Part shown: positions 4,429 to 21,239 of the stretch, piece after piece | Layout of the letters: each line of letters opens with the position of its first letter | Numbering within the stretch: the first letter of the stretch is position 1 | Origin: a virus | IMG/VR virus record: IMGVR_UViG_3300025137_000285 | Span: 1 to 24,039 of that record | DNA length: 24,039 nt | Direction: 5' to 3' (one strand) | Notes under the pieces: generated by a model | Seen by the model: the letters and a program-made list of their open reading frames with translations, nothing else | Database searches by the model: none | What the model was told of the DNA's origin: nothing | Translations under genes and position numbers: made by a program

Positions 4429-4461
4429 AACTTCGGGGTGGTTCGCCACCCCCAAGTTTTT
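4429..4461 (+). terminator. Rho-independent terminator after capsid gene
   Basis: GGGGTGG (4435-4441) pairs with CCACCCC (4446-4452) around a TTCG loop. The stem continues outside a C-C mismatch with AACTT (4429-4433) against AAGTT (4454-4458), and a run of five T ends at 4461. It separates capsid from connector genes, so downstream genes need read-through or antitermination. Confidence 0.9.
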
Positions 4462-5081: not shown

Positions 5082-6334
5082 TGGCTCGTAAACCTACAAG
5101 TATTACTCAAATAAGGGATGACCTTAAAAGAAATGTATTTACTAGAGCTAAGTTACTGCGTAGAGCAATTGATAGAAATAAAGCAATTACTCAAATAACA
5201 AAATTTGATGGAGAATACGCAAAAAGATTTGAAGCTTTTAAAGAAGCTGCAAATCAAGCAGCAAAAGAGCACGGAGATAAGTCTAGAAAAACATTTGAGT
5301 TTGAAGGTAAAAAATTTAGTACAGGCACAGCAAAAAGACTAGTAGATAATAAGTCTAGTTTCAGGCAACAAGGTTACTTATATAATAAGTTATTTCCAGA
5401 GCTAGTAGAAAACTACCAGCTAGGACACCAAAATATAAGTATTCTTAGAGCCAATATTGCACTTGCACTAGACACTTATGAGAAAGATGATCCAAGAAGA
5501 CCAGCCTTAAGAGCTTTATTTGTTGCCGTTGAAGAATTAGATAAAATAATTGATGAAGAAAATCTTGAAGGTATAAATTTTGAAAACTTAATGAGTGAAG
5601 TTTCAAAAACAGTAAATAGAAAAAGAAGTTTTAAAGTAGAATACAAAGCTGATATAGACATTATACAGGGTATCAGTGGAATGATAGAAATGGAGTATGA
5701 ACCTATTGGTCTTAATCAGGCTAAAGGTAGGGTATCCGCATTTATTGGTGAGCTATTTAAACAGTTAGTAGAAGACGAAGAAGCAAACATAGAAAAATAT
5801 TTAGCGGGTATAGATGTAACTAAATTAAAAGGTTCTCCTAATATGCTTGAAGATATAGGGGATCTTTTAACAGAAGCAATAGACCCTAAGAAGAAAGCAA
5901 AAAAACGAAAGCGAAGGCCCAGTCCTGGCAAAGGATCAAATGCAGGAGGAAGGACTCAAACAAGAAGCAGAAAAAAACTAACAAAACCTAGGCGTCCAAC
6001 AGTAACTAAAGGTACAAACAGTTCGTTAAAGTTATTGGGGGTTTTAAATCAAAAACTACCAGAAACTGTAAGAAAAAATATGAGAGAACCGGGGTTAGTA
6101 AACCAAACAGGTAGATTTGCAAGTAGCGTTAAAGTTACAGATATAGCAGAAACTGCAGGAGGTTTTCCTAGTATAGGGTATACTTACGATAGAGATAATT
6201 ATAGTCAGTATGAAGCTAGTAGCGGAAGTAGATTTGCCAATCCAGACAGAGATCCAAGAAAAGTTATAGATGAGTCTATACGAGAAATAGCAATACAATT
6301 ATTAGAAGGCAGATTTTTTACTAGGAGAGTTTAG
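5081..6334 (+). CDS. Neck / head-tail joining protein with long helical extension and polybasic linker
   Basis: The product has 417 residues and three visible parts. Residues about 1-268 are charged and mostly helical with no family I recognise. Residues about 269-310 form a strongly basic, Gly/Pro-containing linker (PKKKAKKRKRRPSPGKG, then RSRKKLTKPRRP). Residues about 335-417 (LVNQTGRFASSVKVTDI, YSQYEASSG, DPRKVIDESIREIA) resemble the C-terminal region of HK97 gp10-like neck or tail-completion proteins, which normally span only about 120-150 residues. The assignment as a neck protein rests on that region and on its place between connector and tail terminator. The large N-terminal addition is unusual; it may wrap the connector or contact DNA in the channel, which is inference. 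The start overlaps the connector stop and the stop overlaps a GTG start. Confidence 0.7.
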   Translation: MARKPTSITQIRDDLKRNVFTRAKLLRRAIDRNKAITQITKFDGEYAKRFEAFKEAANQAAKEHGDKSRKTFEFEGKKFSTGTAKRLVDNKSSFRQQGYLYNKLFPELVENYQLGHQNISILRANIALALDTYEKDDPRRPALRALFVAVEELDKIIDEENLEGINFENLMSEVSKTVNRKRSFKVEYKADIDIIQGISGMIEMEYEPIGLNQAKGRVSAFIGELFKQLVEDEEANIEKYLAGIDVTKLKGSPNMLEDIGDLLTEAIDPKKKAKKRKRRPSPGKGSNAGGRTQTRSRKKLTKPRRPTVTKGTNSSLKLLGVLNQKLPETVRKNMREPGLVNQTGRFASSVKVTDIAETAGGFPSIGYTYDRDNYSQYEASSGSRFANPDRDPRKVIDESIREIAIQLLEGRFFTRRV

Positions 6335-6792
6335 TGACAACATCAAATAGAACTTATACTACTAGACGTCAAGGTATTGTAAATGCTCTTGTAACACAGA
6401 TAAAAACAATAAATGGCTCAGGAGACTTTCGTACAGATTTAAGCAATAATGTAAGCCCAAGACTAAAGTTTTGGGATGAAGTAGATGATTTTCCTTCAGT
6501 ACATATAAATGCAGGAGGAGAGACTAGAGAATATCAAGGTGGCGGGTATAAAGATCGCTTTCTTGCTATTACATTAAGATGTTATGTAAATGCTGATAAC
6601 TCTGTCGAAGCATTAGATGCTTTATTAGAAGATATAGAAACCGTCATAGAAGATAATTCTTCTTTGACTTATGCAGATAAAAGTGGTGCAACAACCACCA
6701 CTCAACAAATCTCAATCATTAGTATTGATACTGATGAAGGAGTCCTCGACCCTTTAGGAGTGGGAGAAATACTAATAGAGGTTCGATATTAG
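6334..6792 (+). CDS. Tail terminator protein (gpU-like)
   Basis: The product has 152 residues and starts with GTG at 6334, overlapping the neck stop by one base (TAGTG) with a good AGGAGAG ribosome site upstream. The sequence alternates helices and strands, with RFLAITLRCYVN (near residue 78), a central helix ALDALLEDIETVIEDN, and a closing strand DEGVLDPLGVGEILIEVRY (key element TDEGVLDP). This matches small phage tail terminator proteins such as lambda gpU and similar tail-completion proteins, which form a hexameric ring that stops tube growth and joins the tail to the head. Position immediately before the tail tube gene is the normal one. I am fairly sure of the class but have no alignment. 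Confidence 0.78.
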   Translation: MTTSNRTYTTRRQGIVNALVTQIKTINGSGDFRTDLSNNVSPRLKFWDEVDDFPSVHINAGGETREYQGGGYKDRFLAITLRCYVNADNSVEALDALLEDIETVIEDNSSLTYADKSGATTTTQQISIISIDTDEGVLDPLGVGEILIEVRY

Positions 6793-6854: not shown

Positions 6855-7994
6855 ATGGCCTTAACTTTTAGTCGCGATACGAAGCTGTTTGTAACTGTAA
6901 GCAGCATGGTATTTGAAATTCCAATTCTTGATGGATTTTCTTTTTCGCAAGCTCAAAATATTCAAGAAATATCACTTAATGAAGCAGCTTCAACAAGTGG
7001 AGTTAGTCGTAGAGGGCGAGAAGCTCTTGTAAATTCAATTAACCCTGCTGAGTTTAGCTTTTCAACTTATATTAGACCTTTTAAGTCTGCAGGTTCAGGA
7101 GCTGGAGCTGCTGATAATGCTGCGGAACATCACATGGTAGATGATGTTTTATGGTCTCTACTTCTAGCTAGTAACACAAGCACCTTTACTGGAGGTGATG
7201 CTTCTACTCCTGCTGCGTCTGTTATACCAGGCTGGGCTTTTGCGGGTGCAGCCAGCGCGCTTACTCCTAGTAGTAATTCGACTACTTTAAATACCTGTAG
7301 CCTAACATTTCTAATTGGAGATCAAAGTTATACAATTTCTGATTGTGTAATGAATGAGTGTAGTATTGATTTTGATATTGATGGAATTGCTACAGCAAGC
7401 TGGAGCGGGTTTGGTACAACAATTGTAGATGGCGCTGCTGCAGGTAGTGTAACTTGTAACGAAGGGATTTTTGCTCAAAATAACTTTATTCGTAACAGGC
7501 TTTCACAAGTTAGATTAGTTGGTGGAGGAGATCCTGCTTCGGTAACTTATGGTATTACTTTAATAGGGGGCAGTCTCACAATTTCCAATAATATTACTTA
7601 TTTAACTCCTGAGCAGTTAGGTAAGGTAAATACTCCTTTAGGTCATGTAACAGGTACTAGGTCAGTTACAGGAACTTTAAATTGTTATCATAATACTACT
7701 TCCAATGGCTCGGCAGATTTATTGGAAGATATTCTAGAGGATATAGGAACAGCTACTACTGCAGGTAATGCAACAAACGTACATGAGTTGGATATCTTTA
7801 TTGGTGGAGGATCAGGTACAGATCCTAACACTCCCGGAATGATAATTAGTATGGATCAAGTACATTTAGAAATCCCTACAATCTCTTCTGATGATGTTAT
7901 GACAGTTGAGATTCCATTCCATGCACTACCTGCTGATTTGGATTCTACAAATGAAATAACTTCAATAATTGTAGAGGGTGCAGTACCAGCTTAA
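6855..7994 (+). CDS. Major tail tube protein
   Basis: The product has 379 residues with a strong AGGAGA ribosome site (6843-6848). It is placed where the tube gene belongs, between the tail terminator and the chaperones. Sequence features are beta-rich: FSFSQAQNIQEISLNEAA (about 28-45), STYIRPFKSAGSG (about 70-82), a middle domain with two cysteines (C148, C164), then GKVNTPLGHVTGTRSVTGTL (about 256-275) and LEIPTISSDDVMTVEIPF (about 338-355). These pairs reappear in the next gene, so the two are paralogues. The GKVNxxxxHVTGxR motif also occurs in other phage tube proteins of this type as far as I recall. Hundreds of copies would stack around the tape measure. It is probably the main tube subunit because it is compact and has the stronger ribosome site and a terminator behind it. 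Confidence 0.82.
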   Translation: MALTFSRDTKLFVTVSSMVFEIPILDGFSFSQAQNIQEISLNEAASTSGVSRRGREALVNSINPAEFSFSTYIRPFKSAGSGAGAADNAAEHHMVDDVLWSLLLASNTSTFTGGDASTPAASVIPGWAFAGAASALTPSSNSTTLNTCSLTFLIGDQSYTISDCVMNECSIDFDIDGIATASWSGFGTTIVDGAAAGSVTCNEGIFAQNNFIRNRLSQVRLVGGGDPASVTYGITLIGGSLTISNNITYLTPEQLGKVNTPLGHVTGTRSVTGTLNCYHNTTSNGSADLLEDILEDIGTATTAGNATNVHELDIFIGGGSGTDPNTPGMIISMDQVHLEIPTISSDDVMTVEIPFHALPADLDSTNEITSIIVEGAVPA

Positions 7995-8022
7995 TAATTA
8001 GTTTTATACTAAGCGCATAAGG

Positions 8023-8045
8023 CGGGGGCTTCGGCCTCCGTTTTT
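8023..8045 (+). terminator. Rho-independent terminator after tail tube gene
   Basis: CGGGGGC (8023-8029) pairs with GCCTCCG (8034-8040), with one G-T pair, around a TTCG loop closed by C-G, the especially stable form. Five T follow (8041-8045). It lies 14 bases before the next ATG and would make the compact tube protein more abundant than its giant paralogue. Confidence 0.92.
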
Positions 8046-8058
8046 GTAAGAGATATTT

Positions 8059-11000
8059 ATGGCTATTCAAAAGAAGTCACAGACTCAATGTTTTTTGGAG
8101 AACGGAGGACAACTCTGGAAGCTCCCTATATCTGATTACAGTTTTTCTCAAAACTTAAATCAGGAGGATATAGTAATAAATGAAATGAGTACAGGTGTCG
8201 CTCTAAATAGAAGTATAGGCCAAGAAAATATTTCATTAGATCCTGCAGACTGGAGTTTAACTACTTTTGCAAAACCTTTCAAAACTACGGGGTCAGGAGA
8301 TGGCAGAGCTTCTTTAGTTTCAGGAAATCATCATGCAACTGATGAGGCATTATGGAGCATGCTTGGGAGCTCTCAAGGCGCAGTTTTACAGCCAGGAACT
8401 GCACTATCAGATTTAGATACATATAGAGGTAAAGTTACTTGGACTACAGCAGATATAAGTACGGCACATGGAGGCTCCAATGCAAATACAATTGGATATT
8501 GGGCACACGCAGAGCCAAATGTTTTTGATTTGTATGTTCTAGAGAAGTTTGAGCCTAATATAGAAGCAAATTATCAAGATACTTTTATTTGGACTTGCAC
8601 TACAGCAGGTGGGTTAAAGATACCTGTAGAGCGTGGAGTTAATCGATCCAATCAACTAGAACGAAATGGGAATGAAATGAGAGCATATTCTGACGTTGCT
8701 CATGGTGGTGGTCCAGTTTTATTTGTATATTCCTATGTTCATGCTAATCAAGGAAGCTCTGAGTTTTTTACAACTTTACTTATTCCTTCAGATACAACTT
8801 TTCATGATTTTTTAAATACAAATGGTGCTTTAACTATTACGGGTACTCCAAAGTCAACCGTGTACCTTTCAGGGGTAAAAGACGCTGTTGCAAGCTCTAA
8901 GTGGAGTTTTGATTTTTCTCAGTCTCAAAAAGAGCAACTAGCAACTGGAAATCTATATTTTGTTACAGATATTCCTCAAGTAACAACTGTAGCGGGAACA
9001 GTAAATTCCTCCAATCAACTAATTTTAGAAGCCACACATCATCATACCGATATTGAGTGGAATTTTTTTGGTAGCGATTCCTACGCTTCTTTCTTTAAGG
9101 GAGGATATGTACCATATGTACATATTGATCATTTACAGTATCAAAATACAACTAGCGTTACTGGGTGGAGCTTACCTACTACATGGTTTGTAAGTGGTAA
9201 AGGTACTCCAGCTGCTAGAACGGGCAGCGTTGAGACTAAAAATTGTGTGTACCCTAGCAAGATAATTAGAGATGGGGTTGAGTATCCTGTAACAGTATTT
9301 GGTACTGATTCAATTGGAGATAGTAGCATTTCAGCTATATGGAACGATGGTTCAAATTATTGGCACTGTCCTACTTTCAGATTTAGAGTACAAACTGATG
9401 GTAAAGTTAACACTATCCAAATAAGAGACTCAAAAGCTCCAAATGTACTCGCTGTAAGTGTAGCCAGCTGGGGACAGCGAGCAGGAGGTATAGCAGGAGA
9501 TATATTTGTAATACCTGCAGGAACTTTAGACGATAATGGTGTAGCACTTCCTGTAGAGGTAAGATTTGTTGCTACCTCTGCTTCTTCTATGGATTTGGGA
9601 CGGTTACCTACCTCCGCTGATAGAGATGTTTTTATATATGGAACGGAAAATTATAAAAGCGATCTTACTAAAACTCCTCAATTTGAAGTATTTGGTCGCG
9701 GTAGACCTCAATGGTTAGTGGATAATGATTTTTATGTTGAGGTAGAAAAAGTTGACTCTGGAACTACATTTTCTTTAACGGAAAATTCTAACTCTCGTCA
9801 AGATCTCAGGCAGATTACTACTGCAACTACACAAACTGATTGTAATGATTCAAGAAATATTACTTTAAGTGCTTCAAATTCAAATATACGTTTAGGAGCT
9901 TTAGTAACAGGAAGTTTTACCGATAAGAGAGTATATGTTAGTTTTATATCAGGAACTACTTTAAGAGTTCAGGGGAATGTAACAATACCTGCAGGAACTA
10001 CTTTAACTTTTATAGACTACCCTGTTAAAGCAGGTCTTAGTCAAGGAGAGTATAGATGGTATAATTCTGACGGTAGAAACCATCTAATATATAGAGAACC
10101 CGCTGATTTTACTGGGCATAATCCTGATTTAATAAGAGTATACACTTCCCGAAATAAAAATACGGGTGGAAGTGCTGTTATGAAACTAGAAGACTGTGTA
10201 ATTGATACTGCTTCTCTAAACTTTGGCATAGATAGTATGACACAAATTACTTGGACAGGTTATGCCAAAAAAATACATCAAGAAGCCCCTAACTTTATTA
10301 TAGCTTCCTCCGCTCCTTCGAGCCCCTCAGCAAAAGATATTTTTTACGATATAGATGATGATAAAGTACAAATTAGAAATGCTGCGAATACTGCTTGGAT
10401 AAATTGTATTACTGAAGGAGTAGATAAAGAAGATAACTTTATAATAAATAAACTAGGCACTCTTAAACTTGCAAATAATGTTGGAACTGCTCAAGTAAAT
10501 ACAATACTATTAGATGAATTAATATTTTCCGATCCAAATGCATATTCTTATTTAGGAGGATCGTCTAAATACTACTCCGGTTTAGCAGGCACAAATGGAA
10601 TGACTGCAAATATTGCTGCAACTATAATTAATTTAGGAGATATTAATGCCAGAGAAAATAATACTCAAGCCTCTTATGCGGAAACTGCAAATTGGTTAGG
10701 TGATTATGACTGGAGTTTAAATATAGACGGTCAAACCTATGGCTCCTCTCACTTTAAAGGCGTAGACACTTGGACAGTAAACTCTACTTTAATAACTGCT
10801 ATGAGATCCGAAACAACTTTTGGAGATTTTTTATTGGCAAAAAACGTAGGAGTTTGGCATAATAATGCTAACATACTTTTAATGTTTTGCACAGGAACAA
10901 ACGCATCTTATAATACAGCAGCTAAGCTTGCTGCAGCAAATATAACTTTGACAGGAACAGCAAAATCCTCTGTTAAAACTTTTGAAGAGTTTAGTATTCC

Positions 11001-11532
11001 AATTACGGGTGGAACTGTTACTATTTTAAATAATATACAAACTATTACAAGAAATGAAATTGGAAAAGTCAATACAATGGATTCTCATGTAACAGGTGCC
11101 AGAATAATAAAAGGAGAAGTAAGCGCTTATTTAGACGATACTACTTCTATTGTTAGAAACAGGATATTTGAAGAAATGAATGAATCTATAGCTTATTCTG
11201 CTTATGGTGAAGGCGATACTGAAATGGGATTTAGTAATCCTTATACATATAATGTTGAAATGTCTTTAGGAGGAACTTATTTAGCAGATAATACTGTTAA
11301 TTTAAAAATGCCAACTACTAGCTTTAAGTTGCCCACAATAGATTCAGAAGAAGTATTTACAACAAATATACAATTTACCGCATTAGATCCTGGAGTATAC
11401 CAGAGAGATATAATTTCACTTAATGAGGCATTTCCTTTATTTAATAATTTTGTGCCAACACCTTATGCTGGCAATACAGGCACGCACAATCAGCAAGGGA
11501 AAGAATTAAATGTAATTTATAAAGGTAAGTAA
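8059..11532 (+). CDS. Giant tail tube paralogue with inserted domains
   Basis: The product has 1157 residues. Its ends and two internal blocks align by eye with the 379-residue tube protein just upstream: residues 1-107 (SFSQNLNQEDIVINE, FAKPFKTTGSG, HHATDEALWSML), about 706-740 (CVIDTASLNFGIDSM), about 788-808, and about 976-1130 (EIGKVNTMDSHVTGAR, LPTIDSEEVFTTNIQF). Between them lie about 600 extra residues (108-705), a short piece with SSAPSSPSAKDIFYD (about 741-787, like tail-fibre linkers), and about 160 residues (812-975). The first and last extra parts share a pattern (TTFHDFLN with LTITGTPKS, and TTFGDFLL with ITLTGTAKS), suggesting a duplicated module. No enzyme motif is visible. Minor tube subunit, decorated tube or baseplate ring component are possible roles; the insertions may bind carbohydrate, which is unproven. 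Lying behind a terminator, it is probably made in lower amounts. Confidence 0.8.
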   Translation: MAIQKKSQTQCFLENGGQLWKLPISDYSFSQNLNQEDIVINEMSTGVALNRSIGQENISLDPADWSLTTFAKPFKTTGSGDGRASLVSGNHHATDEALWSMLGSSQGAVLQPGTALSDLDTYRGKVTWTTADISTAHGGSNANTIGYWAHAEPNVFDLYVLEKFEPNIEANYQDTFIWTCTTAGGLKIPVERGVNRSNQLERNGNEMRAYSDVAHGGGPVLFVYSYVHANQGSSEFFTTLLIPSDTTFHDFLNTNGALTITGTPKSTVYLSGVKDAVASSKWSFDFSQSQKEQLATGNLYFVTDIPQVTTVAGTVNSSNQLILEATHHHTDIEWNFFGSDSYASFFKGGYVPYVHIDHLQYQNTTSVTGWSLPTTWFVSGKGTPAARTGSVETKNCVYPSKIIRDGVEYPVTVFGTDSIGDSSISAIWNDGSNYWHCPTFRFRVQTDGKVNTIQIRDSKAPNVLAVSVASWGQRAGGIAGDIFVIPAGTLDDNGVALPVEVRFVATSASSMDLGRLPTSADRDVFIYGTENYKSDLTKTPQFEVFGRGRPQWLVDNDFYVEVEKVDSGTTFSLTENSNSRQDLRQITTATTQTDCNDSRNITLSASNSNIRLGALVTGSFTDKRVYVSFISGTTLRVQGNVTIPAGTTLTFIDYPVKAGLSQGEYRWYNSDGRNHLIYREPADFTGHNPDLIRVYTSRNKNTGGSAVMKLEDCVIDTASLNFGIDSMTQITWTGYAKKIHQEAPNFIIASSAPSSPSAKDIFYDIDDDKVQIRNAANTAWINCITEGVDKEDNFIINKLGTLKLANNVGTAQVNTILLDELIFSDPNAYSYLGGSSKYYSGLAGTNGMTANIAATIINLGDINARENNTQASYAETANWLGDYDWSLNIDGQTYGSSHFKGVDTWTVNSTLITAMRSETTFGDFLLAKNVGVWHNNANILLMFCTGTNASYNTAAKLAAANITLTGTAKSSVKTFEEFSIPITGGTVTILNNIQTITRNEIGKVNTMDSHVTGARIIKGEVSAYLDDTTSIVRNRIFEEMNESIAYSAYGEGDTEMGFSNPYTYNVEMSLGGTYLADNTVNLKMPTTSFKLPTIDSEEVFTTNIQFTALDPGVYQRDIISLNEAFPLFNNFVPTPYAGNTGTHNQQGKELNVIYKGK

Positions 11533-11647: not shown

Positions 11648-12073
11648 ATGAGCGAGCAAGAAGTAGTATCACTGTCATCTTTGATGACTCCCAGTAAAAC
11701 AGTACAGATAGATTTTCCAGGTTATAAAGATTTTAGAGTTTTAGTTTGTTACTTAGCACGAGAAGAATTAGTTAAGCTTCGTAAAAAGTGCATGACAACA
11801 AAGTTTAATAAAAGAACTCATCAACCTGAAGAAGAATTAAACGAAGATAAATTTTTAACAGAATATTGTAAAGCAGTTATTAGAGGCTGGTCAGGCTTCA
11901 AATACTCTTACCTAGAAGAGCTTCTTTTGGTGGATGTATCTAGCTATGATGCTGACGATGAACTTCCTTTTACTACAGATAATGCGGAAACGTTGATGAA
12001 AAACTCAAATGGTTTTGATACGTGGCTTACAGAAACCGCAAGTGAACTGGAAAATTTTACTCAGAACAAGTAA
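11648..12073 (+). CDS. Tail assembly chaperone, short form (gpG-like)
   Basis: The product has 141 residues, with AGGATAT before the ATG. In long-tailed phages the gene just before the tape measure encodes a chaperone that coats the tape measure and keeps it soluble until tube protein replaces it; lambda gpG (140 residues) is the model. Here size, place, the mixed charged sequence (VCYLAREELVKLRKKCM, about 33-49) and a C-terminal acidic region fit. Sequence likeness alone is weak, as is usual for these proteins. The main support is the recoding site at the 3' end that joins it to the following frame. The stop at 12071-12073 is used by ribosomes that do not shift. Confidence 0.82.
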   Translation: MSEQEVVSLSSLMTPSKTVQIDFPGYKDFRVLVCYLAREELVKLRKKCMTTKFNKRTHQPEEELNEDKFLTEYCKAVIRGWSGFKYSYLEELLLVDVSSYDADDELPFTTDNAETLMKNSNGFDTWLTETASELENFTQNK

Positions 12074-12492
12074 GCAGAATACAAAACTTACTTGTTCGAT
12101 ATGTAAATCAAGCTTCAACGTTTGATCTAGACAAGTATTTACAAATTTGTGAACAGCTAGGCGAAGAACCTGACCCCGAAAGAATGCCGGTTGAACTAAC
12201 AGGAATGCCTGTAGAAGTTCAAACGGCATTTTTTATATATGGATTTCTTCCTGATGTTTGGGATGGAATGTCTGGTACTTATATGGGGAAAGACTGGTCT
12301 TCGCTACAATATTTTATGACTATTTATGAGGTCGAAGAAGAAAAAGTAGTAATTATGTTTATGAAAATGTATGAAACAATTACTATTAACCATAGAGCAG
12401 ACAAACAACAAGAGAACCGTAAAAAAGCAGAAAGACAAGCAAAAAACTCTGCAGGAAGTGGTGGTAACTACACTCATAGTGTGAAAGGTTAA
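11648..12492 (+). CDS. Tail assembly chaperone, frameshifted long form (gpGT-like)
   Basis: A -1 shift at the heptamer ending at 12058 joins 137 residues of the first frame to 144 of the next, giving about 281 residues, close to the lambda GT fusion. The -1 frame is open from 12046 to the stop at 12490-12492; a TGA in that frame at 12043-12045 and the zero-frame stop at 12071-12073 confine the shift to a 28-base window, in which A_AAU_UUU is the only standard slippery site. The added T-like part begins YSEQVSRIQNLLVRYV and ends in a charged, Lys/Arg- and Gln-rich tail (near QQENRKKAERQAK). In lambda the T domain binds tube protein while G binds the tape measure. No ribosome site precedes ATG 12184, so that frame is not a separate gene. 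The tape measure ATG follows its stop immediately. Confidence 0.88.
12052..12058 (+). promoter_or_regulatory. -1 programmed frameshift slippery site A_AAU_UUU
   Basis: The zero frame reads GAA-AAT-TTT; the bases 12052-12058 (AAATTTT) fit X_XXY_YYZ. After slipping, translation continues TAC-TCA-GAA and stays open to 12492. The zero-frame stop lies 12 bases downstream. I see no strong stem just after the site, so any stimulator is weak or absent. Confidence 0.85.
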
Positions 12493-15400
12493 ATGGCAAA
12501 GAAGAATAGAGTACAAATAGACGTAGAAATTAATGGTAAAATGCAAAAAGCAACCGTTGATGCCAAAAAACTTCGTGGACAACTAGACGGACTAAGTGGT
12601 AGTGCTCATTCAACAGATCGTCGTCTTAAAGGTGCTTCTCAGCAATCTGCAAATACAACTAAAAACTTTTCAAAAATGGCTCAAGGTATTACTGGAGGAC
12701 TTGTTCCTGCGTATGCAATTTTAGCTTCTTCTGTATTTGCCATGTCTGCAGCTTTTAACTTTTTAAAGAATGCTGGTGATCTTCGTACTTTACAACAGGG
12801 TCAAGTTGCATATGCTAGTGCTACTGGTGTAGGATTAAGAACTCTAACAAAATCTGTGCAGGATGCAGCAGGAGGAATGCTGACATTTAGAGATGCTGCT
12901 CAAGCAGCTTCTATTGGTGTAGCTGCAGGTCTTAGTCCCGATCAGCTAACTCGTCTTGGTAAAGCCGCAAAAGATGTTTCTATTGTATTAGGTAGAGATG
13001 TTACTGACTCTTTTAATCGTCTTGTAAGAGGTGCTACAAAAGCAGAACCTGAACTACTTGATGAATTAGGTATTATACTAAGATTAGATGACGCTACAAA
13101 ATTATACGCAGATAAACTAGGTATAGCCGCGGGAACTCTTACTACTTTTCAAAGACAACAAGCAGTAACAAATTTTGTACTGGGAGAAGCAGAAAGAAAG
13201 TATGGTGCTATACTTGATATTGTTGAAGTTCAGCCAAATGCTTTTGCACAATTAGGTAAAGCATTTGATGATATTATGAACAAAGTAAAGTCTTTAATAG
13301 AGACTGCACTTAGCCCTCTTGCTGAAACTCTTACTCGATTTCCCGCATTAGCCGTAGCAGCTTTTGGTTTGCTAGGTGCAAGTATTATGAAATCAATTAT
13401 TCCTGGATTACAAGACTTTGGAGCAAATGCAAAATCTAACTTTGAAATTTTTAGTAGTCAAGCAGAAATTGCACGTCAAAGAGCAGTAGCATTTAATGCA
13501 ACCTTAGCTAAAGCTAAACTAGATCCTGGGGCAACTTCTGCGATGGGAGATGCAGCGAGAGCCGGTGCTAGTTCGACTTTGCAGCAGGCAGGACCAAAGT
13601 CAGCTTTCTCAGGAAAGTATGCTCAAGTTCATGCAGGTGACTTTTCTAATATAAGCAAAAAACAAGTTAGTAACATGATAGAAGATCTTGAAAAAGGAAC
13701 TGGACAAGCAAAACTACTTTCTCAAAGTATGAGAGATTCTATGATTTTGGACTTAAAAGATGTTCAGTTAGAAATGAAAGTCACCGGAAATGTCGTAGAA
13801 GTAGAGACAGCAGAAGCAACTACAAAAGCCAAGTTTTCTTTTAAATCTTTTGAGCTAAGTGCAAAAGCAGCAATTGCAGGAATTAAAGCTCAAATGTCTA
13901 CTCTTGCAATCGCTGCATCTAGATTAATGTCTGCATTTGGTTGGATTTCTATACTTGCAACTGCAGGTACTATGCTTTATAGCTTTATAAAACCTGTAAA
14001 AGAACTAACTGCTGAAGAAAAGAAATTAGCAGAAACTACTGAAAACTTAGAGAAAAAATTACAGAGTCTCGGAAATGAATTTACTTTTTTAACTGATGTA
14101 ATGCAGCATCATAACAAAGAAGCCTTTACTTTAGCAGAAACCTTTACTGTGCTAGGAAATGCACTTAGTAATTTAAGCGAAGATGAAATGGGTTTGAATG
14201 TTAAAAACTTTGAATCTGCTCTTCCTGTACTTCAACAAATAAGTAAAGAAATAGATCGGTTAAATACTAATAGGGCTGCGTATAATGCCAAGGATGTAAG
14301 TCAAGGCAGAAAACCCCGGTTTGAAATGATAGATAGTTCTATGGAAGGAATTGTAAAACGGGCTCAGTCTGGTGTTAATGATTTAAGTGATGAAGAAGCT
14401 GCCGCCGTAGGATTTTTTACAACAATACAAAATGCAATGAACGCTACAGAAAATGAAGCACTAAAAAATGCAACTTCATTTAAAAACTTAGCCGCTGCTT
14501 TACAAGGAGTTGGAGAAGTAAGTTTAGAGGAAGCAATAAAACAGTTTCAAGCTTCATCAAAAGCTTTGGACTCAATAACAAAAACAGGTGTTGAAAACGC
14601 TAAAAAATCTAGACAATTATTTGCAAGTTTTATGCCTGAGAGTAAATTTGATCAACAAGTGGCTCTTTTAGAAGCTGAAAAGAAAGCAATTGATGAGCTT
14701 ACAGCTAAGGAAGGGACACTAAGCGCAATAGAAGAAGAAAGACTAAAAGTGATTGAAAAACAAGTTATTGCTTTTAAACGCATAGCCGTAGAAAAACATA
14801 AAGATCTTATGATGACTATGAAAATTAATAATATGGCTCTAGCTTCCCAGAGAGGTGCGACTCCTTTACAAAAAGAAAGATTAAATACCCAAAAAGAACT
14901 TCTTCATGTAAATAGAAAAATTGTTGCAATACAAAACAATAATAGAATTGTTCAATCAAAAATTAATGAAGAAGTGAAAAAAGCAACTGCCAATGGCTTA
15001 TCAGCTTCAGAAGCAAATGTTACTGCAGGAGAACGACAGCTCGAAATAAATAGAGAAAAAACTTTAGAGTTAGCACTGCAAAAACAAGCTTTAGAGGATC
15101 AATTAAATTTACAGTTTCAACTGAATGAAGCATTTAAAGCAGGGTTTGAAGCACAAACTACAAAAGGCGTAGAGGGTCTTATTACTGGAGAGGAAAGCAG
15201 TTTCGGAGACGTTGCACTAGAATCAGTACAAGCAGGGTTAAAAGGAATGGCGAGTACTTTAGCTAAAGATATGTCTAGAAATGTAAGTGACTTCATGTTT
15301 GGAAAGAAAGCATTAAAAGATCCAGAGAATGCGGATGACGTACTAAAGACAGTATATGATAGTGCAACTGGTGCTCTTAAAGTAGTTATGGCTGGTGCAC

Positions 15401-16566
15401 CTAAAGTAGATCCTAAACCTACTCCTTCAACTCCGGGCAAAGTCGACCCTAAAAACTTTGACACAGGAGGAGGGACTCCAGGTGCGGGACAATCTATTTT
15501 TAACGCTGATGGTAGTATTAATCAAACAAGAGGCTACTCTATGGGCACTGGTAATATGATGAGCGCTGATGGTGCAATAGATTGGGCTTCTTTAGGTGTA
15601 ACTAAGGAAAGTATGGCGAAACCAACAATAACAGGTCAAGGTGCTGGAGTTGTTGGGGGCATGGCAAATGTTACAAAAGAACAACTAGCTGGTTCAGGTC
15701 TTAGCTTAACCGAATATATGAATCAAATGAACGCTACAGGAACTCGACCTGGAGAAGGTGGAGACGGTGAAGGGCTTCCAGGAGGCGAAGGCTTTTTAGA
15801 AGGATTAAAAAATGTATTTACAGGGGAAGGAAGTGAAGATGGTTTTGTAGGAAGACTTGGTACTTTCTTCCAAGGACAAGCCGAAGGGGAGGGTTTTATA
15901 GGAAAAATGTCAACTTTCTTTACTGAAGCAGCAAACCATAAAGATGGATTTGTAGGTAAGCTAAAAGATACCTTTAAAGAAAAACTGCTTGGACCTGATG
16001 GCTTTCTACAAGGATTAGGGTCTACTTTTAAAGAGAAAGGCAAGAATCTTTTAGATGGATTAGGCGGCTTTTTAGGTAAAATGAAAGATGGTTTAGGAGG
16101 ATTTTTAAGTGAGATGGGAGGAGCTCTTAAAGGTCTTTTTAGTGGCGGTGGCGGTGGCGGTGGCCTCGGAGGCTTACTAAGCACTGTAGCCGGAGCGTTT
16201 GGATTTGGGGGTGGAGGTGTAGGCGCTAGATACGGCGGTATCATGAAAGAGTATGCTACTGGAGGAATCGCAAGAGGTAGAAATGCTGGATATCCTGCTA
16301 TGCTTCATGGAACAGAGGCTGTAGTTCCTTTACCTAACGGAAATAAAATTCCTGTAGAAATGCAAGGTGGTGGAGGAAATAATATTACAAATAATATTAC
16401 AGTAAATGTAAGCAAAGAAGGTGCCTCTCAAGAAACTACTTCCTCTATGGGAGAAAGCTCAAAAGACGATGCAAAACTAGCAAATGCACTATCTTTAGCG
16501 GTACAAGAAGAACTTGTAAAACAACAAAGACCTGGCGGATTATTAAGCCAGTATGGAGCAGGCTAA
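12493..16566 (+). CDS. Tape measure protein
   Basis: The product has 1357 residues and is one of the two longest proteins wholly in the tail operon. Tape measures set tail length at about 1.5 angstrom per residue, so the tail should be near 200 nm. Features in order: basic N-terminus, hydrophobic segment at about 68-92 (VPAYAILASSVFAMSAA), an Ala-rich conserved region (about 100-215), further hydrophobic stretches at about 280-305 and 485-500, helical and coiled-coil middle (about 510-880), a Gly-rich repeat region (1099-1216), poly-Gly, and the usual end GGIARGRNAGYPAMLHGTEAVVPL (key element LHGTEAVVPL). Hydrophobic segments are thought to enter the cell membrane during DNA injection. I see no peptidase or transglycosylase motif, so cell-wall cutting may rest with the K-like protein. 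The ATG abuts the chaperone stop with AAAGG five bases before; its stop overlaps the M-like start. Confidence 0.95.
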   Translation: MAKKNRVQIDVEINGKMQKATVDAKKLRGQLDGLSGSAHSTDRRLKGASQQSANTTKNFSKMAQGITGGLVPAYAILASSVFAMSAAFNFLKNAGDLRTLQQGQVAYASATGVGLRTLTKSVQDAAGGMLTFRDAAQAASIGVAAGLSPDQLTRLGKAAKDVSIVLGRDVTDSFNRLVRGATKAEPELLDELGIILRLDDATKLYADKLGIAAGTLTTFQRQQAVTNFVLGEAERKYGAILDIVEVQPNAFAQLGKAFDDIMNKVKSLIETALSPLAETLTRFPALAVAAFGLLGASIMKSIIPGLQDFGANAKSNFEIFSSQAEIARQRAVAFNATLAKAKLDPGATSAMGDAARAGASSTLQQAGPKSAFSGKYAQVHAGDFSNISKKQVSNMIEDLEKGTGQAKLLSQSMRDSMILDLKDVQLEMKVTGNVVEVETAEATTKAKFSFKSFELSAKAAIAGIKAQMSTLAIAASRLMSAFGWISILATAGTMLYSFIKPVKELTAEEKKLAETTENLEKKLQSLGNEFTFLTDVMQHHNKEAFTLAETFTVLGNALSNLSEDEMGLNVKNFESALPVLQQISKEIDRLNTNRAAYNAKDVSQGRKPRFEMIDSSMEGIVKRAQSGVNDLSDEEAAAVGFFTTIQNAMNATENEALKNATSFKNLAAALQGVGEVSLEEAIKQFQASSKALDSITKTGVENAKKSRQLFASFMPESKFDQQVALLEAEKKAIDELTAKEGTLSAIEEERLKVIEKQVIAFKRIAVEKHKDLMMTMKINNMALASQRGATPLQKERLNTQKELLHVNRKIVAIQNNNRIVQSKINEEVKKATANGLSASEANVTAGERQLEINREKTLELALQKQALEDQLNLQFQLNEAFKAGFEAQTTKGVEGLITGEESSFGDVALESVQAGLKGMASTLAKDMSRNVSDFMFGKKALKDPENADDVLKTVYDSATGALKVVMAGAPKVDPKPTPSTPGKVDPKNFDTGGGTPGAGQSIFNADGSINQTRGYSMGTGNMMSADGAIDWASLGVTKESMAKPTITGQGAGVVGGMANVTKEQLAGSGLSLTEYMNQMNATGTRPGEGGDGEGLPGGEGFLEGLKNVFTGEGSEDGFVGRLGTFFQGQAEGEGFIGKMSTFFTEAANHKDGFVGKLKDTFKEKLLGPDGFLQGLGSTFKEKGKNLLDGLGGFLGKMKDGLGGFLSEMGGALKGLFSGGGGGGGLGGLLSTVAGAFGFGGGGVGARYGGIMKEYATGGIARGRNAGYPAMLHGTEAVVPLPNGNKIPVEMQGGGGNNITNNITVNVSKEGASQETTSSMGESSKDDAKLANALSLAVQEELVKQQRPGGLLSQYGAG
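15787..16140 (+). repeat. Degenerate 17-19-residue protein repeat in tape measure
   Basis: Residues about 1099-1216 of the tape measure hold successive units starting EGF, DGF, EGF, DGF, DGF, DGL and DGL, each followed by a hydrophobic and Lys/Gly pattern, for example DGFVGRLGTFFQGQAEG and DGFVGKLKDTFKEKLLGP. Unit length is mostly 17-19 residues, with one of 11. The DNA is diverged, so the repeat is old or selected at protein level. Confidence 0.7.
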
Positions 16567-16937
16567 TGTCATTAATTGGATTTACAACCACACTAGGACA
16601 CGACTTCACTCCAGATAAAAGCCTTACAATTAGTAATACACCTACTATAATTACGGCAAAATTTGGAGATGGCTATGAGCAGAGAGCTAGAAAAGGTATT
16701 AATAGTTTACAAGTTTCTTATGCAGTTACTTTTTCAAATAGAACTCTATCAGAGGCTCAAGAATTATCAAGGTTTTTTGAAGAGGTACTGGGAGTAACTT
16801 CTTTTGATTTTAGTTTACCTAAAACAAGTCTTAACACATACAATGTAGTAAGCGTAGTATGTGACGACTACTCTAGAACTATGGACTATAATAACTACCA
16901 TACAATAACGGCAACATTTAGAAGAGTATATAATTAA
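16566..16937 (+). CDS. Minor tail protein M-like
   Basis: The product has 123 residues, close to lambda gpM. Recognisable elements are AKFGDGYEQRARKGIN (about 31-46), a conserved block of this family, and the ending ITATFRRVYN. Lambda gpM is a tail-tip component added with L and needed to complete the tip complex on which the tube grows. Its start overlaps the tape measure stop (TAATG) and its own stop overlaps the L-like start in the same way, so M and L are translationally coupled. Nothing unusual is seen, in contrast to the greatly enlarged L-like neighbour. Confidence 0.92.
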   Translation: MSLIGFTTTLGHDFTPDKSLTISNTPTIITAKFGDGYEQRARKGINSLQVSYAVTFSNRTLSEAQELSRFFEEVLGVTSFDFSLPKTSLNTYNVVSVVCDDYSRTMDYNNYHTITATFRRVYN

Positions 16938-19900
16938 TGCCAACTAGAATAAATAGAACTCAAGAAATAGATAATTCTTTGCAGAAACAAGAGCTAGAGG
17001 CTCTTGTAAATCTTTTTGCAATTTATTTACCAAACCCCTCTTCTGTGGGTAGCTGGCTTGCTGAGCCAACATACACCTTAACTGCGGTTGATGTCTCACA
17101 ATCACATCTTGCATATTCCGTGCCTAATGCGAACTTCTCTGATCCCACAAAAAAACCCTTTAATTTTATAATAAAAGGTAAAAAATATCAGTTTGATCCA
17201 ATACCTATTGAAATAGATGGTATAGAGTATACTTCTGAAAGTGCTATGCCGCACCCAATGGTAACAATAGGTAATATAAACTTACCTGGGTGGAAGCCAG
17301 AATCTTTATTAGGAGCTAAATTTCAGTATATACAAACTTTTCAAAAATATGTTAATACTGATACTTCTTTGCCAGTACAAACTTTTATTATAGACTCAAT
17401 AAAAGAAGAAACTTTTTCATATATTCAATATGAACTAGTTGCTCCCTATGATTTGCAAGACGTAAAGTTACCTAGAAGAAGAATAGTAGGGGGACAGTGC
17501 CCTTGGATATATAAAGGAGCCTCAGAAAAATCTGGAAGACATAATTTTATAGCTACAGATGCTATTAGAGGGGGCTGCAACTGGCCTGATGATAATATTT
17601 ATGTAACAGGAGGCCAGGGGAGGGCTTCTTTACTATTTATGAATTCAAACGATGAATATGTAGTTGATGCAAGATTAATACCTTTAGCTACTAGAAATTA
17701 CGCAGAAAAACCGGCAGACCAAGGTATTACTGCCGGACAATATTTTTATACTATTTCTTCGTCTTACAAGTTAGACAGTCAAGGACTAAAAGACCCTAAT
17801 TTAAGCATAGTATACCAATACTGGCAGGCTATGAAAACTGTTACTTTTGATCAACCAGTAGACGAACCTTCTGCAGATAGCCCTTTCTGGAGACAAGTAA
17901 GAGTATATAAACCTTACAATTATACTAATACTTATTGTGCATATTCTGACTCTCGTTTTAATGATTACGTTAGTCTTTCGCAGGGAGGTACTACAGTAAA
18001 TAATGCAGGATTAGCCAGTCTTGTAGAAGGTTATGAATTTGTAGAGCCAGAACCCATTAATGAGATAATACCATTAGATAGTTTTTCGGAAGTATTAGAC
18101 AACGCAGGAGGAAAAGCTTTAAGGTTAGCTATAGACCCTGGTACATCTTTGGAGATATTAGCTAATTACATAGCCGATGTAGAATATTCAACAGATGATA
18201 TGGGAGCTTATATAAATACTAGAACTAACACAGCTGTGGGCTCTTTTGCAGCTCAACCTGGTACTGACCAAACTTGGTTAAATTTAGTCGCCCCTATTTA
18301 TAATTCAGGACTTTTATATAGTAAACAAAATATTCAAGGTTGGGGAATGGCACCAGGACAAGTTGTTCTTGTAGATGAGACAAACTTAAATCCTGCATAT
18401 AATTCTATTAAAGCAGGAACTGATTATTCTTTATGGATAGGTCTTGGAGCCAATACAGTTGAAGAAACTAATGGATTAAGTGGGTTTTTAAGTCCAGAAG
18501 GAGAGTTTTTGTCTTTGTGGATGCATACAAAAAATGAAAATACACAAACTCAAAAACAAATTTATCAAGTAAAGAACAAAACTCTTGACCCAAATAAACT
18601 ATCTAGACTTCAGCACGGACCCTTTCCTCCTAGAGATACTAGGAGCTTTAATTATGAAAACTGGAATGCTGGAGATCAGTGTAGTAAAACTTTAGATGCG
18701 TGCGTTCTTAGATTTCAATCAGCAGCTTTAGCGGTGGAAGAAGACGAGTCAGTTAATACTAATTTTGATTGGAATATGACACCTAGATACTCTGATGATG
18801 CATCAGGAATTAGAAATATATATTATATGGCAACTCTTACGCCAAGCTACGACTTTAGCCGAGGGGCCGAAGGGCAGAGCGGAGTCGACCTCCTAGGAAG
18901 GAGTCCTGTAGTAAGATATCTTAGATGTGACGATGATGTTTTATATAATAGCTTACCTGATGAAGGTTTTGTAAATGTCGAGATGTACATAGATGGACAA
19001 TATAGAACTAATTATCCTTACTATAAGCATAATAAAACAGGGCAAGATAATTATTTAGATGATGGAAATGATGTAAGTTTTTCTGGTAGTAAGACAGGAA
19101 GCGAGTATACAGGAGCAATGGGCCATAAATTAAGCCCTAGATTAAATCTTCCAGACATGGCCGATAAGGGTTTTGGAGATTATTACTATATTAAACTAGC
19201 TCCTCAAGAAGACTCAACTTCTCCGGGTACTTTTACTCCTGGTTGGGCAACTTTTACTGAAGGGGCGGAAGTTACTACGGCATCAGGAAGAGAGGTGTTA
19301 TTTCACCCTGACCGAAGTATAAGGAGTGGTGGCAACCGAAAGTTAGGCATTGGCGTTGACGGCTCTTCATATAATTTTACGTTTAAATGGTCTGGGTCTG
19401 AAAACCCGGCACAGGGGGGCACTCCTTCACAGCCTCACGGTCTAATAATGGCTGATATAGACGTACTTGGCGTTGAAAATGAAGGGGCAGTAAATGGTTT
19501 ATTTCTAATTAGTATGGCGGGCCTAGAAGCAGAAACTGCTCCTTTTGAAATCGATCGATTTGATAATATGACAGAGGGCGGTATGGGAATGAGCCCTCGA
19601 GGCTATCTTGGCGACATAGGAGTGCCTGATGTGACTATAACAGCCAGTGGCAGTGGCGAAGGCGTTGGCACCTTTCTAACAGGTACAAAAAATAATGCAG
19701 TGGCACATGGGGGCGCATCTTCGGGGTGGACTGTGGGCTCTAGGTCTTGGACTCAACCTGTATTAAGAGATAAAGACGATAATGCTATAGCAAACGGAAC
19801 TATAGACCCAAGTACAGGACAAACATATAAATTTAGATTTTCTAATTTTACTAATTTAGGTAATACTCCGTTAAGCCCAGTTTTACAATCACAAATTGCT

Positions 19901-19942
19901 CTACCTTTTGGAGGTTTTCCAGGCTCAAGGAGGTTCAAGTAA
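16937..19942 (+). CDS. Minor tail protein L-like, greatly enlarged by two insertions
   Basis: The product has 1001 residues; lambda gpL has about 230. Residues 1-220 follow gpL: LEALVNLFAIYL, IEIDGIEYTSESAMPHPMVTIGN, LVAPYDLQDVKLPRRR, then QCPWIYKG (C188) and GGCNWP (C214). The third and fourth signature cysteines, usually some tens of residues on, lie at DQCSKTLDACVLRF (C582, C589), and the family's terminal FGGFPG motif is at 991-996, at the very end. Lambda gpL binds an iron-sulphur cluster through four cysteines; all four positions seem kept here, with C582-C589 at the seven-residue spacing I recall for lambda. About 365 residues lie between the cysteine pairs and about 390 between RF592 and FGGFPG. 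The second insertion is much GC-richer than the rest. AAGGAGG near the 3' end serves the next gene. Insertion functions are unknown; surface-exposed binding domains at the tail tip are likely. Confidence 0.88.
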   Translation: MPTRINRTQEIDNSLQKQELEALVNLFAIYLPNPSSVGSWLAEPTYTLTAVDVSQSHLAYSVPNANFSDPTKKPFNFIIKGKKYQFDPIPIEIDGIEYTSESAMPHPMVTIGNINLPGWKPESLLGAKFQYIQTFQKYVNTDTSLPVQTFIIDSIKEETFSYIQYELVAPYDLQDVKLPRRRIVGGQCPWIYKGASEKSGRHNFIATDAIRGGCNWPDDNIYVTGGQGRASLLFMNSNDEYVVDARLIPLATRNYAEKPADQGITAGQYFYTISSSYKLDSQGLKDPNLSIVYQYWQAMKTVTFDQPVDEPSADSPFWRQVRVYKPYNYTNTYCAYSDSRFNDYVSLSQGGTTVNNAGLASLVEGYEFVEPEPINEIIPLDSFSEVLDNAGGKALRLAIDPGTSLEILANYIADVEYSTDDMGAYINTRTNTAVGSFAAQPGTDQTWLNLVAPIYNSGLLYSKQNIQGWGMAPGQVVLVDETNLNPAYNSIKAGTDYSLWIGLGANTVEETNGLSGFLSPEGEFLSLWMHTKNENTQTQKQIYQVKNKTLDPNKLSRLQHGPFPPRDTRSFNYENWNAGDQCSKTLDACVLRFQSAALAVEEDESVNTNFDWNMTPRYSDDASGIRNIYYMATLTPSYDFSRGAEGQSGVDLLGRSPVVRYLRCDDDVLYNSLPDEGFVNVEMYIDGQYRTNYPYYKHNKTGQDNYLDDGNDVSFSGSKTGSEYTGAMGHKLSPRLNLPDMADKGFGDYYYIKLAPQEDSTSPGTFTPGWATFTEGAEVTTASGREVLFHPDRSIRSGGNRKLGIGVDGSSYNFTFKWSGSENPAQGGTPSQPHGLIMADIDVLGVENEGAVNGLFLISMAGLEAETAPFEIDRFDNMTEGGMGMSPRGYLGDIGVPDVTITASGSGEGVGTFLTGTKNNAVAHGGASSGWTVGSRSWTQPVLRDKDDNAIANGTIDPSTGQTYKFRFSNFTNLGNTPLSPVLQSQIALPFGGFPGSRRFK
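19201..19740. other. GC-rich island inside the L-like gene
   Basis: Hand counting gives about 48% GC over 19201-19740, up to 55-58% in single 60-base lines, against about 22% at 17161-17220 and 33% at 18901-18960 in the same gene. A smaller rich patch lies near 18841-18900. Codons such as GGC, GCC and GTC become common. It covers much of the second insertion, suggesting acquisition from a different source. Confidence 0.65.
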
Positions 19943-19944
19943 TG
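19927..19944 (+). promoter_or_regulatory. Strong ribosome binding site for the K-like gene
   Basis: AAGGAGG at 19927-19933 lies eight bases before ATG 19942 and is formed by the last codons of the L-like gene (S-R-R-F-K end). It fixes the start of the K-like gene and, with the TAATG overlap, gives both coupled and independent initiation. Confidence 0.85.
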
Positions 19945-20637
19945 GATAATGAAATACTAAAATATTGTTTTGAAAAATACCCTGAAGAAGCTTGTGGAGT
20001 AGTATTGAATCAAAAAGGTACTTTAAAATGGATTCCTTGCGAAAATGTAGCAGAGGATAAAGAAAATAGTTTTAAAATTTCTGCAGTAGACTATGCATCT
20101 CTTTCTTTACAAGGAGATATTTATGCCATAGTACACAGTCATCCAGATGAAAGTTGCGAGCCTAGTGAAAAAGACAAAAAAGCGAGCGAACATTTAAAAG
20201 TTCCATATCATATATACTCTATACCAAGCGGAGAAAAACATGTATATACTCCTAGTGTTTCTATAGAGCCTTACATAGCAAGAGTTTATGACTTTGGTGT
20301 AACAGATTGTTGGACTTTAGTAAGAGATTACTATTTACAAGAGTTTAAGTATACACTACCTATGATAGAATTTGATGAAGAATTCTATGATAAAGGAATA
20401 GACTATTTTGGAAATAATATGGAAGCATGGGGAGGCTTTGAAGTAGATACTCCTCAAATTGGAGATGTAGTTCTATTTAAAATAATGAATGATATAGAAA
20501 ACCATTGTGGGGTTTATATAGGGGAAGGAAAGTATATTCATCACATGAGAGACAGGCTCTCTTGTACAGATAGTATTTACTCTGGCTGGGGTAAATATAT
20601 TACGAGGTATATAAGATGCAAAAAGTTGTTCTCGTAG
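19942..20637 (+). CDS. Tail tip assembly protein K-like: JAB/MPN plus NlpC/P60 peptidases
   Basis: The product has 231 residues with two hydrolase domains in the order known for lambda gpK. Residues about 1-105 are a JAB/MPN metalloprotease: E16 in PEEACGVV and HSHPDESCEPSEKD, giving H65, H67, S75 and D78 of the JAMM zinc site. Residues about 115-231 are an NlpC/P60 cysteine peptidase: DCWTLVRDYY with C123 and HCGVYIGEGKYIHH with H188. All key residues are present, so both domains look active. The NlpC/P60 domain could cut peptidoglycan during entry; the JAB domain may process a tail protein, though its substrate is not established. It sits between the L- and I-like genes as in lambda. Its last 22 bases overlap the next gene in another frame. 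Confidence 0.95.
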   Translation: MDNEILKYCFEKYPEEACGVVLNQKGTLKWIPCENVAEDKENSFKISAVDYASLSLQGDIYAIVHSHPDESCEPSEKDKKASEHLKVPYHIYSIPSGEKHVYTPSVSIEPYIARVYDFGVTDCWTLVRDYYLQEFKYTLPMIEFDEEFYDKGIDYFGNNMEAWGGFEVDTPQIGDVVLFKIMNDIENHCGVYIGEGKYIHHMRDRLSCTDSIYSGWGKYITRYIRCKKLFS

Positions 20638-21239
20638 GAGACTTAGCACAGTTTGGAGAAGTTTGGCATACTGAATGTAAAGACATTGCAAGTATATTTA
20701 AACTCATCTCCTGTCAGACTCCTGGATTTCGTAAATATCTTATAGATGCTGATGAAGCAGGTTTAGATGTAGAAATAGTAAAAGGGGGAGAACTTTTAGT
20801 TGACCCAAGAGAGATTCTCATGCAGATAGGGTCTGAGGATATTGTAATAACCTTGTGTCCTTCAGGAGGTAAAAGTAAATTTTTGCGCATCGTATTTGCT
20901 GTAGCTTTGTACTTTACTCCTTTAGGTCCTTTTACTGCAATCGCTCAAGGTATCGCAATTAATTTGGGTCTAAGTGTAATATCAGAAATGCTAGCTCCCG
21001 GCCCTGAGACTCAACAACAAAGAAATCAAATTGATGGAGAAGAAGTAGGAGACAGACTATTTAATGGACCAGTAAATGTAAGTAAAAATGGAACAGTAAT
21101 ACCTTTATTGTATGGAGAACTTATAGTAGGGGGCGCTGCAATAAGTGCAGAATTTTTCCAAGTGAGGGACAACGCTGCAGAAAATACATTTATAGATTCA
21201 TCTATTCAAGATTCAACAGTAAGGTTATATGGAAACTAA
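20616..21239 (+). CDS. Tail tip assembly protein I-like
   Basis: The product has 207 residues. The N-terminal 80 residues form an alpha/beta domain (VVLVGDLAQFGEVW, GFRKYLIDADEAGLDVEI), followed by a long hydrophobic region at about 88-127 (FLRIVFAVALYFTPLGPFT, then AIAQGIAINLGLSVI), a polar linker, and NGPVNVSKNGTVIPLLYGEL (about 150-169; key element GTVIPLLYGEL). This is the layout of lambda gpI, required for tail-tip assembly but not detected in the finished lambda tail. The hydrophobic segment could be a membrane or assembly element. It starts inside the K-like gene, and the J-like ATG follows its stop after two bases. The call rests on motif and place. Confidence 0.9.
   Translation: MQKVVLVGDLAQFGEVWHTECKDIASIFKLISCQTPGFRKYLIDADEAGLDVEIVKGGELLVDPREILMQIGSEDIVITLCPSGGKSKFLRIVFAVALYFTPLGPFTAIAQGIAINLGLSVISEMLAPGPETQQQRNQIDGEEVGDRLFNGPVNVSKNGTVIPLLYGELIVGGAAISAEFFQVRDNAAENTFIDSSIQDSTVRLYGN

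Follow-up and report, generated by a model that had tools for sequence, protein, structure and literature searches.

A giant paralogue of the tail tube protein with four loop insertions in a virus with a T5-like tube module and a lambda-type tail tip

In a 24 kb record of an uncultured, marine-type phage (the window, meaning the whole analysed stretch of 24,039 nucleotides), a gene for a protein of 1157 residues is located between the gene of the tail tube protein (TTP) and the genes of the tail assembly chaperones. What role could a second tube-type protein of this size play in the tail? The original prediction, made from the sequence alone, described it as a minor or decorated tube ring carrying large outward domains.

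Gene Order of the Window

The head, neck and tube modules of the window are T5-like, and the tail tip is of the lambda type. The genes follow in the order portal, protease–capsid fusion, head completion, tail completion, tail terminator, TTP, giant protein, two tail chaperones and tape measure. Downstream of the tape measure gene the module changes to a lambda-type tip, represented by homologues of gpM, gpL, gpK and gpI and followed by a gpJ-like frame from position 21242. The main features are:

6334..6792, + strand, tail terminator of the T5 type (Pfam PF23818, E 1.2e-30)
6855..7994, + strand, TTP, 379 aa, homologue of pb6 without the C-terminal Ig domain (PDB pb6, E 5e-36; phrog_3575, E 6e-53)
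8022..8045, + strand, intrinsic terminator (UUCG hairpin and U tract) between the genes of the TTP and the giant protein; hairpin at the equivalent position in most relatives
8059..11532, + strand, giant TTP paralogue, 1157 aa (sequence matches, TTP HMM, AlphaFold2 model)
11648..12073, + strand, tail assembly chaperone 1 (phrog_313)
12184..12492, + strand, tail assembly chaperone 2 (phrog_3914)
12493..16566, + strand, tape measure protein (phrog_3779, E 1.5e-48)
16566..21239, + strand, lambda-type tip genes gpM, gpL, gpK and gpI (PF05939, PF05100, NlpC/JAB, phrog_30, phrog_32)

The same arrangement was found in a second contig, L001, which is 99.98% identical to the window and stops at residue 400 of the giant protein; the frame is open up to the contig end. 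L001 was the only close relative of the giant protein or its inserts that was found, and a plasmid search gave no match.

Paralogy with the Tail Tube Protein

Both open reading frames, 6855–7994 (379 aa) and 8059–11532 (1157 aa), are present as claimed, and all three quoted pairs of matching blocks were found in the translations. Blastp aligned the TTP with residues 1–115 (35% identity, E 3e-17), 978–1109 (34% identity, E 3e-13) and, as a third block, 710–804 (E 8e-5) of the giant protein. The giant protein was also matched by the TTP HMM built from relatives (E 4e-51), by PHROG 3575 ‘major tail protein’ (E 4e-18) and by pb6 of T5/DT57C in the PDB (E 3e-11), while the Pfam profile PF18906 on its own fell short of E 0.1. 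These matches bear out the claimed paralogy and confirm the giant protein as a true paralogue of the neighbouring TTP, itself a homologue of T5 pb6.

The core of the giant protein shares 28% identity with the TTP of the same virus, and its branch in the tree, with a length of 3.17, compares with a median of 0.34. Alignment columns that are invariant in the TTPs are retained in the giant protein. The core appears to be fast-evolving and relaxed, and the long branch could also mean lost constraint. The position of the giant protein in the tree is not fixed: with the giant protein and its own TTP as a clade, p-AU is 0.475, by which duplication inside this virus is neither shown nor rejected.

Tube Core Segments and Fold

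According to the TTP HMM built on relatives, the giant protein is divided into four core segments (residues 6–111, 277–312, 705–810 and about 974–1117), which jointly span nearly the whole TTP:

8074..8391, + strand, core segment 1, residues 6–111, including the gap-free first long inter-ring loop (HMM 6–109; pLDDT mostly 60–95)
8887..8994, + strand, core segment 2, residues 277–312 (HMM 116–150, iE 0.002; pLDDT up to 91)
10171..10488, + strand, core segment 3, residues 705–810, with a small insert at 750–775 (HMM 144–223)
10978..11409, + strand, core segment 4, residues 974–1117, including the gap-free second long inter-ring loop (HMM, AlphaFold2 model)

Both long inter-ring loops (HMM 40–68 and HMM 246–275) are free of gaps, and the two long loops are required for tube formation by pb6, which assembles into tubes on its own (PMC5717097).

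In the AlphaFold2 model, built with an alignment of 48 family sequences (TTPs), confident structure is essentially confined to the core segments, and the inserts are of low confidence. The flanking blocks do resemble the tube protein in structure, as had been predicted: the modelled core, whose fold is partly steered by the TTP alignment supplied to AlphaFold2, matches T5 pb6 (7qg9_A) with Z 31.4 over 345 aa at rmsd 4.7, and the pb6 crystal structure with Z 30.0 over 311 aa at rmsd 3.0. The T5 tip complex includes a chain of 293 residues, which we take to be p140; the modelled core aligned to it with Z 23.8 over 287 residues. The sequence matches are independent of AlphaFold2. Retention of the complete pb6-type double tube domain is established at the level of sequence and supported by the model.

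Four Loop Insertions

Insertion of about 800 residues between the shared elements had been proposed. The amount is close to that found, about 780 extra residues, but they do not form a single block. One large insertion is ruled out; there are four, at about 112–276, 313–704, 750–775 and 811–973 (about 165, 392, 26 and 163 residues), with core strands between them. In the AlphaFold2 model the insertions are situated between confidently predicted tube strands, in agreement with the expectation that they loop out of one tube fold. Apart from the small insert at 750–775, the inserted regions are:

8392..8886, + strand, insertion S1, residues 112–276, without known domain (TTP HMM, domain searches)
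8995..10170, + strand, insertion S2, residues 313–704 (TTP HMM)
9814..10011, + strand, motif of about 66 residues in S2, residues 586–651, common to loop inserts of the TTPs of contigs L133, L138, L139 and L170 (blast)
10489..10977, + strand, insertion S3, residues 811–973, without known domain (TTP HMM, loop-site comparison)

The S2 motif was detected with E 5e-5 over the open reading frames of relatives and 4e-7 in pairwise comparison, and the small insert resembles an insert of the L048 TTP (z 5.6); part of the cargo thus appears to come from a shared pool. Searches of Pfam and PHROGs, even at loose thresholds, gave no known domain in the inserts, and in particular no recognised sugar-binding or adhesion domain, in regions that have no confident predicted fold. 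S2 folded alone gave pLDDT 32. Insertions S1 and S3 are not recognisable as mutual copies, their score being within the shuffle range.

Relatives with a sole TTP also carry insertions at each of these four loop sites. The site at HMM 110–128 carries about +67 to +119 residues in L043, L048, L069, L080 and others, the site at HMM 144 carries +87 in L143, the site at HMM 184–195 carries +28 to +52 in many sole TTPs, and the site at HMM 217–243 carries +55 to +108 in L096, L115, L119 and L133. Cargo at these sites is therefore tolerated in a working tube and presumably faces outward; since a sole TTP must enclose the tape measure and the DNA, these loops should accept cargo on the outside only. 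The prediction of outward domains gains support from this comparison, and we infer that the four insertions of the giant protein are directed away from the lumen.

Terminator and Expected Dose

The terminator predicted between the two genes is present at 8022–8045, with the stem GCGGGGGC-UUCG-GCCUCCGU followed by a U tract. The intergenic stretch has a folding energy of -20.8 kcal/mol (z -3.0); the hairpin was not listed by a consensus terminator scan. A hairpin terminator is located 3' of the TTP gene in most relatives tested, ahead of the p140 or chaperone gene. For Shine-Dalgarno pairing the energies are -7.3 kcal/mol (TTP gene) and -2.9 kcal/mol (giant gene). The terminator and the weak ribosome site together predict much less giant protein than TTP, and production in small amounts is probable. 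The description of the protein as ‘minor’ is supported indirectly, by these two signals and by the gene position discussed below, and stands as a prediction.

Relation to T5 p140 and Tip Type

In T5, the gene following that of the TTP encodes p140, in the order TTP, p140, chaperones, tape measure. Protein p140 is a trimer with the TTP fold that forms one ring, around which the p132 collar bears the side fibres; its origin has been attributed to an ancient duplication of the TTP, of which only 9% identity remains (PMC10038345). The original prediction makes no mention of p140, the known second tube ring. The giant gene, directly after the TTP gene and before the chaperones, occupies the p140 position. 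Searches with Pfam PF23779 and phrog_3889 gave no match to the giant protein, the p140 HMM scored 1.6 bits against E 4e-51 for the TTP HMM, and there is no detectable identity to p140 against 35% to its own TTP.

Genes of the T5-type tip (pb9, pb3) were not found beside the giant gene, the tip genes being lambda-type M, L, K and I. Where TTP, chaperone and tip can all be seen on a contig, the T5-type tip is accompanied by p140 in every case (46 of 46) and the lambda-type tip in none (0 of 31); these counts are not independent, because many of the contigs are near-identical cultured phages. The window belongs to the lambda-tip group, in which the chaperone gene normally comes straight after the TTP gene. 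In view of the p140-like position, the lack of a p140 signal and the lambda-tip context, the giant protein is better read as the product of a separate TTP duplication in the p140 position, and identity as p140 is not claimed.

T5-type head and tube modules of related contigs are paired either with a T5-type tip and p140 or with a lambda-type tip and no p140, which suggests that whole tip modules are exchanged together with p140.

Recurrence of Extra and Decorated Tube Proteins

Extra TTP copies were found in L015/L016/L125/L129 (L125 and L129 being the same contigs as L016 and L015, respectively), L019, L021, L034, L045 and L178. The L015/L016/L125/L129 contigs encode a 626 aa copy together with a TTP and an enlarged p140; L021 contains a close TTP pair, L034 tube proteins of 659 and 396 aa, and L045 tube proteins of 379 and 649 aa. 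Four tandem tube-type genes (406, 400, 358 and 344 aa) are present in L178:2555-7235, the last two of which give a signal to both the TTP and p140 HMMs and are a possible sequence bridge from the TTP to the p140 family. The large copies of L034 and L015 are encoded upstream of the TTP gene, ahead of any terminator, so that the group shows no set position or dose.

Protein p140 is enlarged to 533–773 aa in L171:7170-9491, L111:7208-8809, L015:10218-11915 and L016:2239-4092, and a lectin-like Laminin_G_3 domain was detected in two of these proteins (L111, E 5e-17; L015, E 3.5e-6). Decorated second tube proteins are a recurrent feature by sequence comparison, and the giant protein, with 1157 aa the largest in the set compared, is a new and extreme variant among them.

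Proposed Role and Alternatives

The reading we prefer, with a probability of about 0.55, is that the giant protein is a TTP-derived, low-copy, decorated tube ring, similar to p140 in function and probably distal and adhesive. A TTP gene would have been copied, the giant copy keeping the full double tube domain and gaining four outward loop insertions. Produced at a low level owing to the terminator and the weak ribosome site, the protein would assemble as a ring of three subunits and stack on the TTP tube via the two intact long inter-ring loops. Judging by the gene position, there would be one special ring, probably close to the tip as in the case of T5 p140, and the inserts would project outward from it as a collar of modules for host contact. 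The result would be a collar-like protein in a lambda-tip phage whose visible genes include no p140 and no collar protein. The relaxed core and the recurrence of extra or decorated second tube proteins count in favour of this reading. Against it count the domain searches, which gave no recognised adhesion domain in the inserts, the low-confidence fold of these regions, the upstream position of the large copies in L034 and L015, and the long branch, with its alternative meaning of lost constraint.

The main rival is co-polymerisation of the giant protein and the TTP along the tail, the giant protein being a minority decorated subunit comparable to SPP1 gp17.1* and lactococcal TpeX. Its core and long loops are intact, there are precedents for decorated and frameshift-extended tail proteins bearing carbohydrate-binding modules (PMC6669499), and the large copies of L034 and L015 lie, like the TTP gene, ahead of the terminator. 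Free mixing within rings is, however, hard to reconcile with a core so diverged from its own TTP (28% identity, branch 3.17), the terminator and weak ribosome site reduce the dose, and the gene occupies the p140 position, so that co-polymerisation is regarded as rather unlikely. A highly diverged and decorated true orthologue of p140 would occupy the same position and have the fold match to the p140-sized T5 chain (Z 23.8, 287 residues); p140 proteins also reach 773 aa, and the L178 proteins give signals to both families. This identity is improbable given the empty PF23779 and phrog_3889 searches, the difference between the p140 and TTP HMM results, the 35% identity to the TTP with none detectable to p140, and the absence of p140 from all 31 lambda-tip contigs.

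Tail position is not readable from sequence, and the extra copy of some relatives lies upstream, adjoining the tail terminator gene; both would be consistent with a decorated ring at the head-proximal end, or with an assembly factor, in place of a distal ring. The T5-group order of TTP, p140, chaperones and tape measure, with the giant gene after that of the TTP, argues against such a role, which is considered quite improbable. Least credible of all is a decaying duplicate without function: it would account for the long branch, but the frame of 1157 codons is intact, and open in L001 to the contig end, the invariant TTP columns are kept and the long loops are free of gaps.

Compared with known systems, the proposed ring protein resembles T5 pb6 (PDB 5NGJ, 7QG9; Pfam PF18906, Phage_tube_2) in the double tube domain, strand order and long inter-ring loops (Z 30–31); it differs in being a second copy next to a normal TTP and in having four internal loop insertions of about 780 residues, instead of one C-terminal Ig domain. 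With T5 p140 (PF23779, phrog_3889) it shares the tube fold, the status of a second TTP-like protein and the gene position directly after the TTP, but it has no p140 sequence signal, is far closer to the TTP, has built-in insertions in place of a separate collar and accompanies a lambda-type tip. A single ring bearing peripheral parts is described for p140 (PMC10038345), and the giant protein would form a comparable ring. Lambda gpV with its Ig domain, SPP1 gp17.1* and TpeX of 936 phages with carbohydrate-binding modules are likewise tube subunits with host-contact domains (PMC6669499), but their cargo consists of C-terminal extensions of the major protein, whereas the giant protein, a separate paralogue, has it in internal loops.

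It is conceivable, though doubtful as a general rule, that repeated tube-gene duplication and outer-loop loading are a general route by which marine siphophages equip themselves with a collar or adhesion ring; in a lambda-tip phage, the giant protein would then stand in for p140, collar and side fibres as a single protein. Tube-gene duplications are visible at several ages, as the close pair of L021, the four-gene series of L178 and the decorated copy of 1157 residues; with this series, the way in which a tube protein becomes a baseplate ring can be put to a direct test, and the insertions point to four loops of the tube fold as acceptors of large cargo.

Other Features of the Window

The gpL homologue (16937–19942) has 1001 aa, compared with 339–504 aa in complete relatives, so that a second tail part is enlarged in this phage; no homology was found between the inserts of the giant protein and the enlarged gpL. 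In the head module, a lysine-rich frame of 99 aa (2036–2335) without match in the PHROG search is located between the portal and protease genes. The prohead protease and the major capsid protein are apparently fused in a single frame of 690 aa (2337–4409), as in most environmental relatives, while in T5 they are encoded by separate genes. A strong hairpin with a U tract (4430–4457) follows immediately 3' of the capsid gene, in the position of an annotated T5 terminator.
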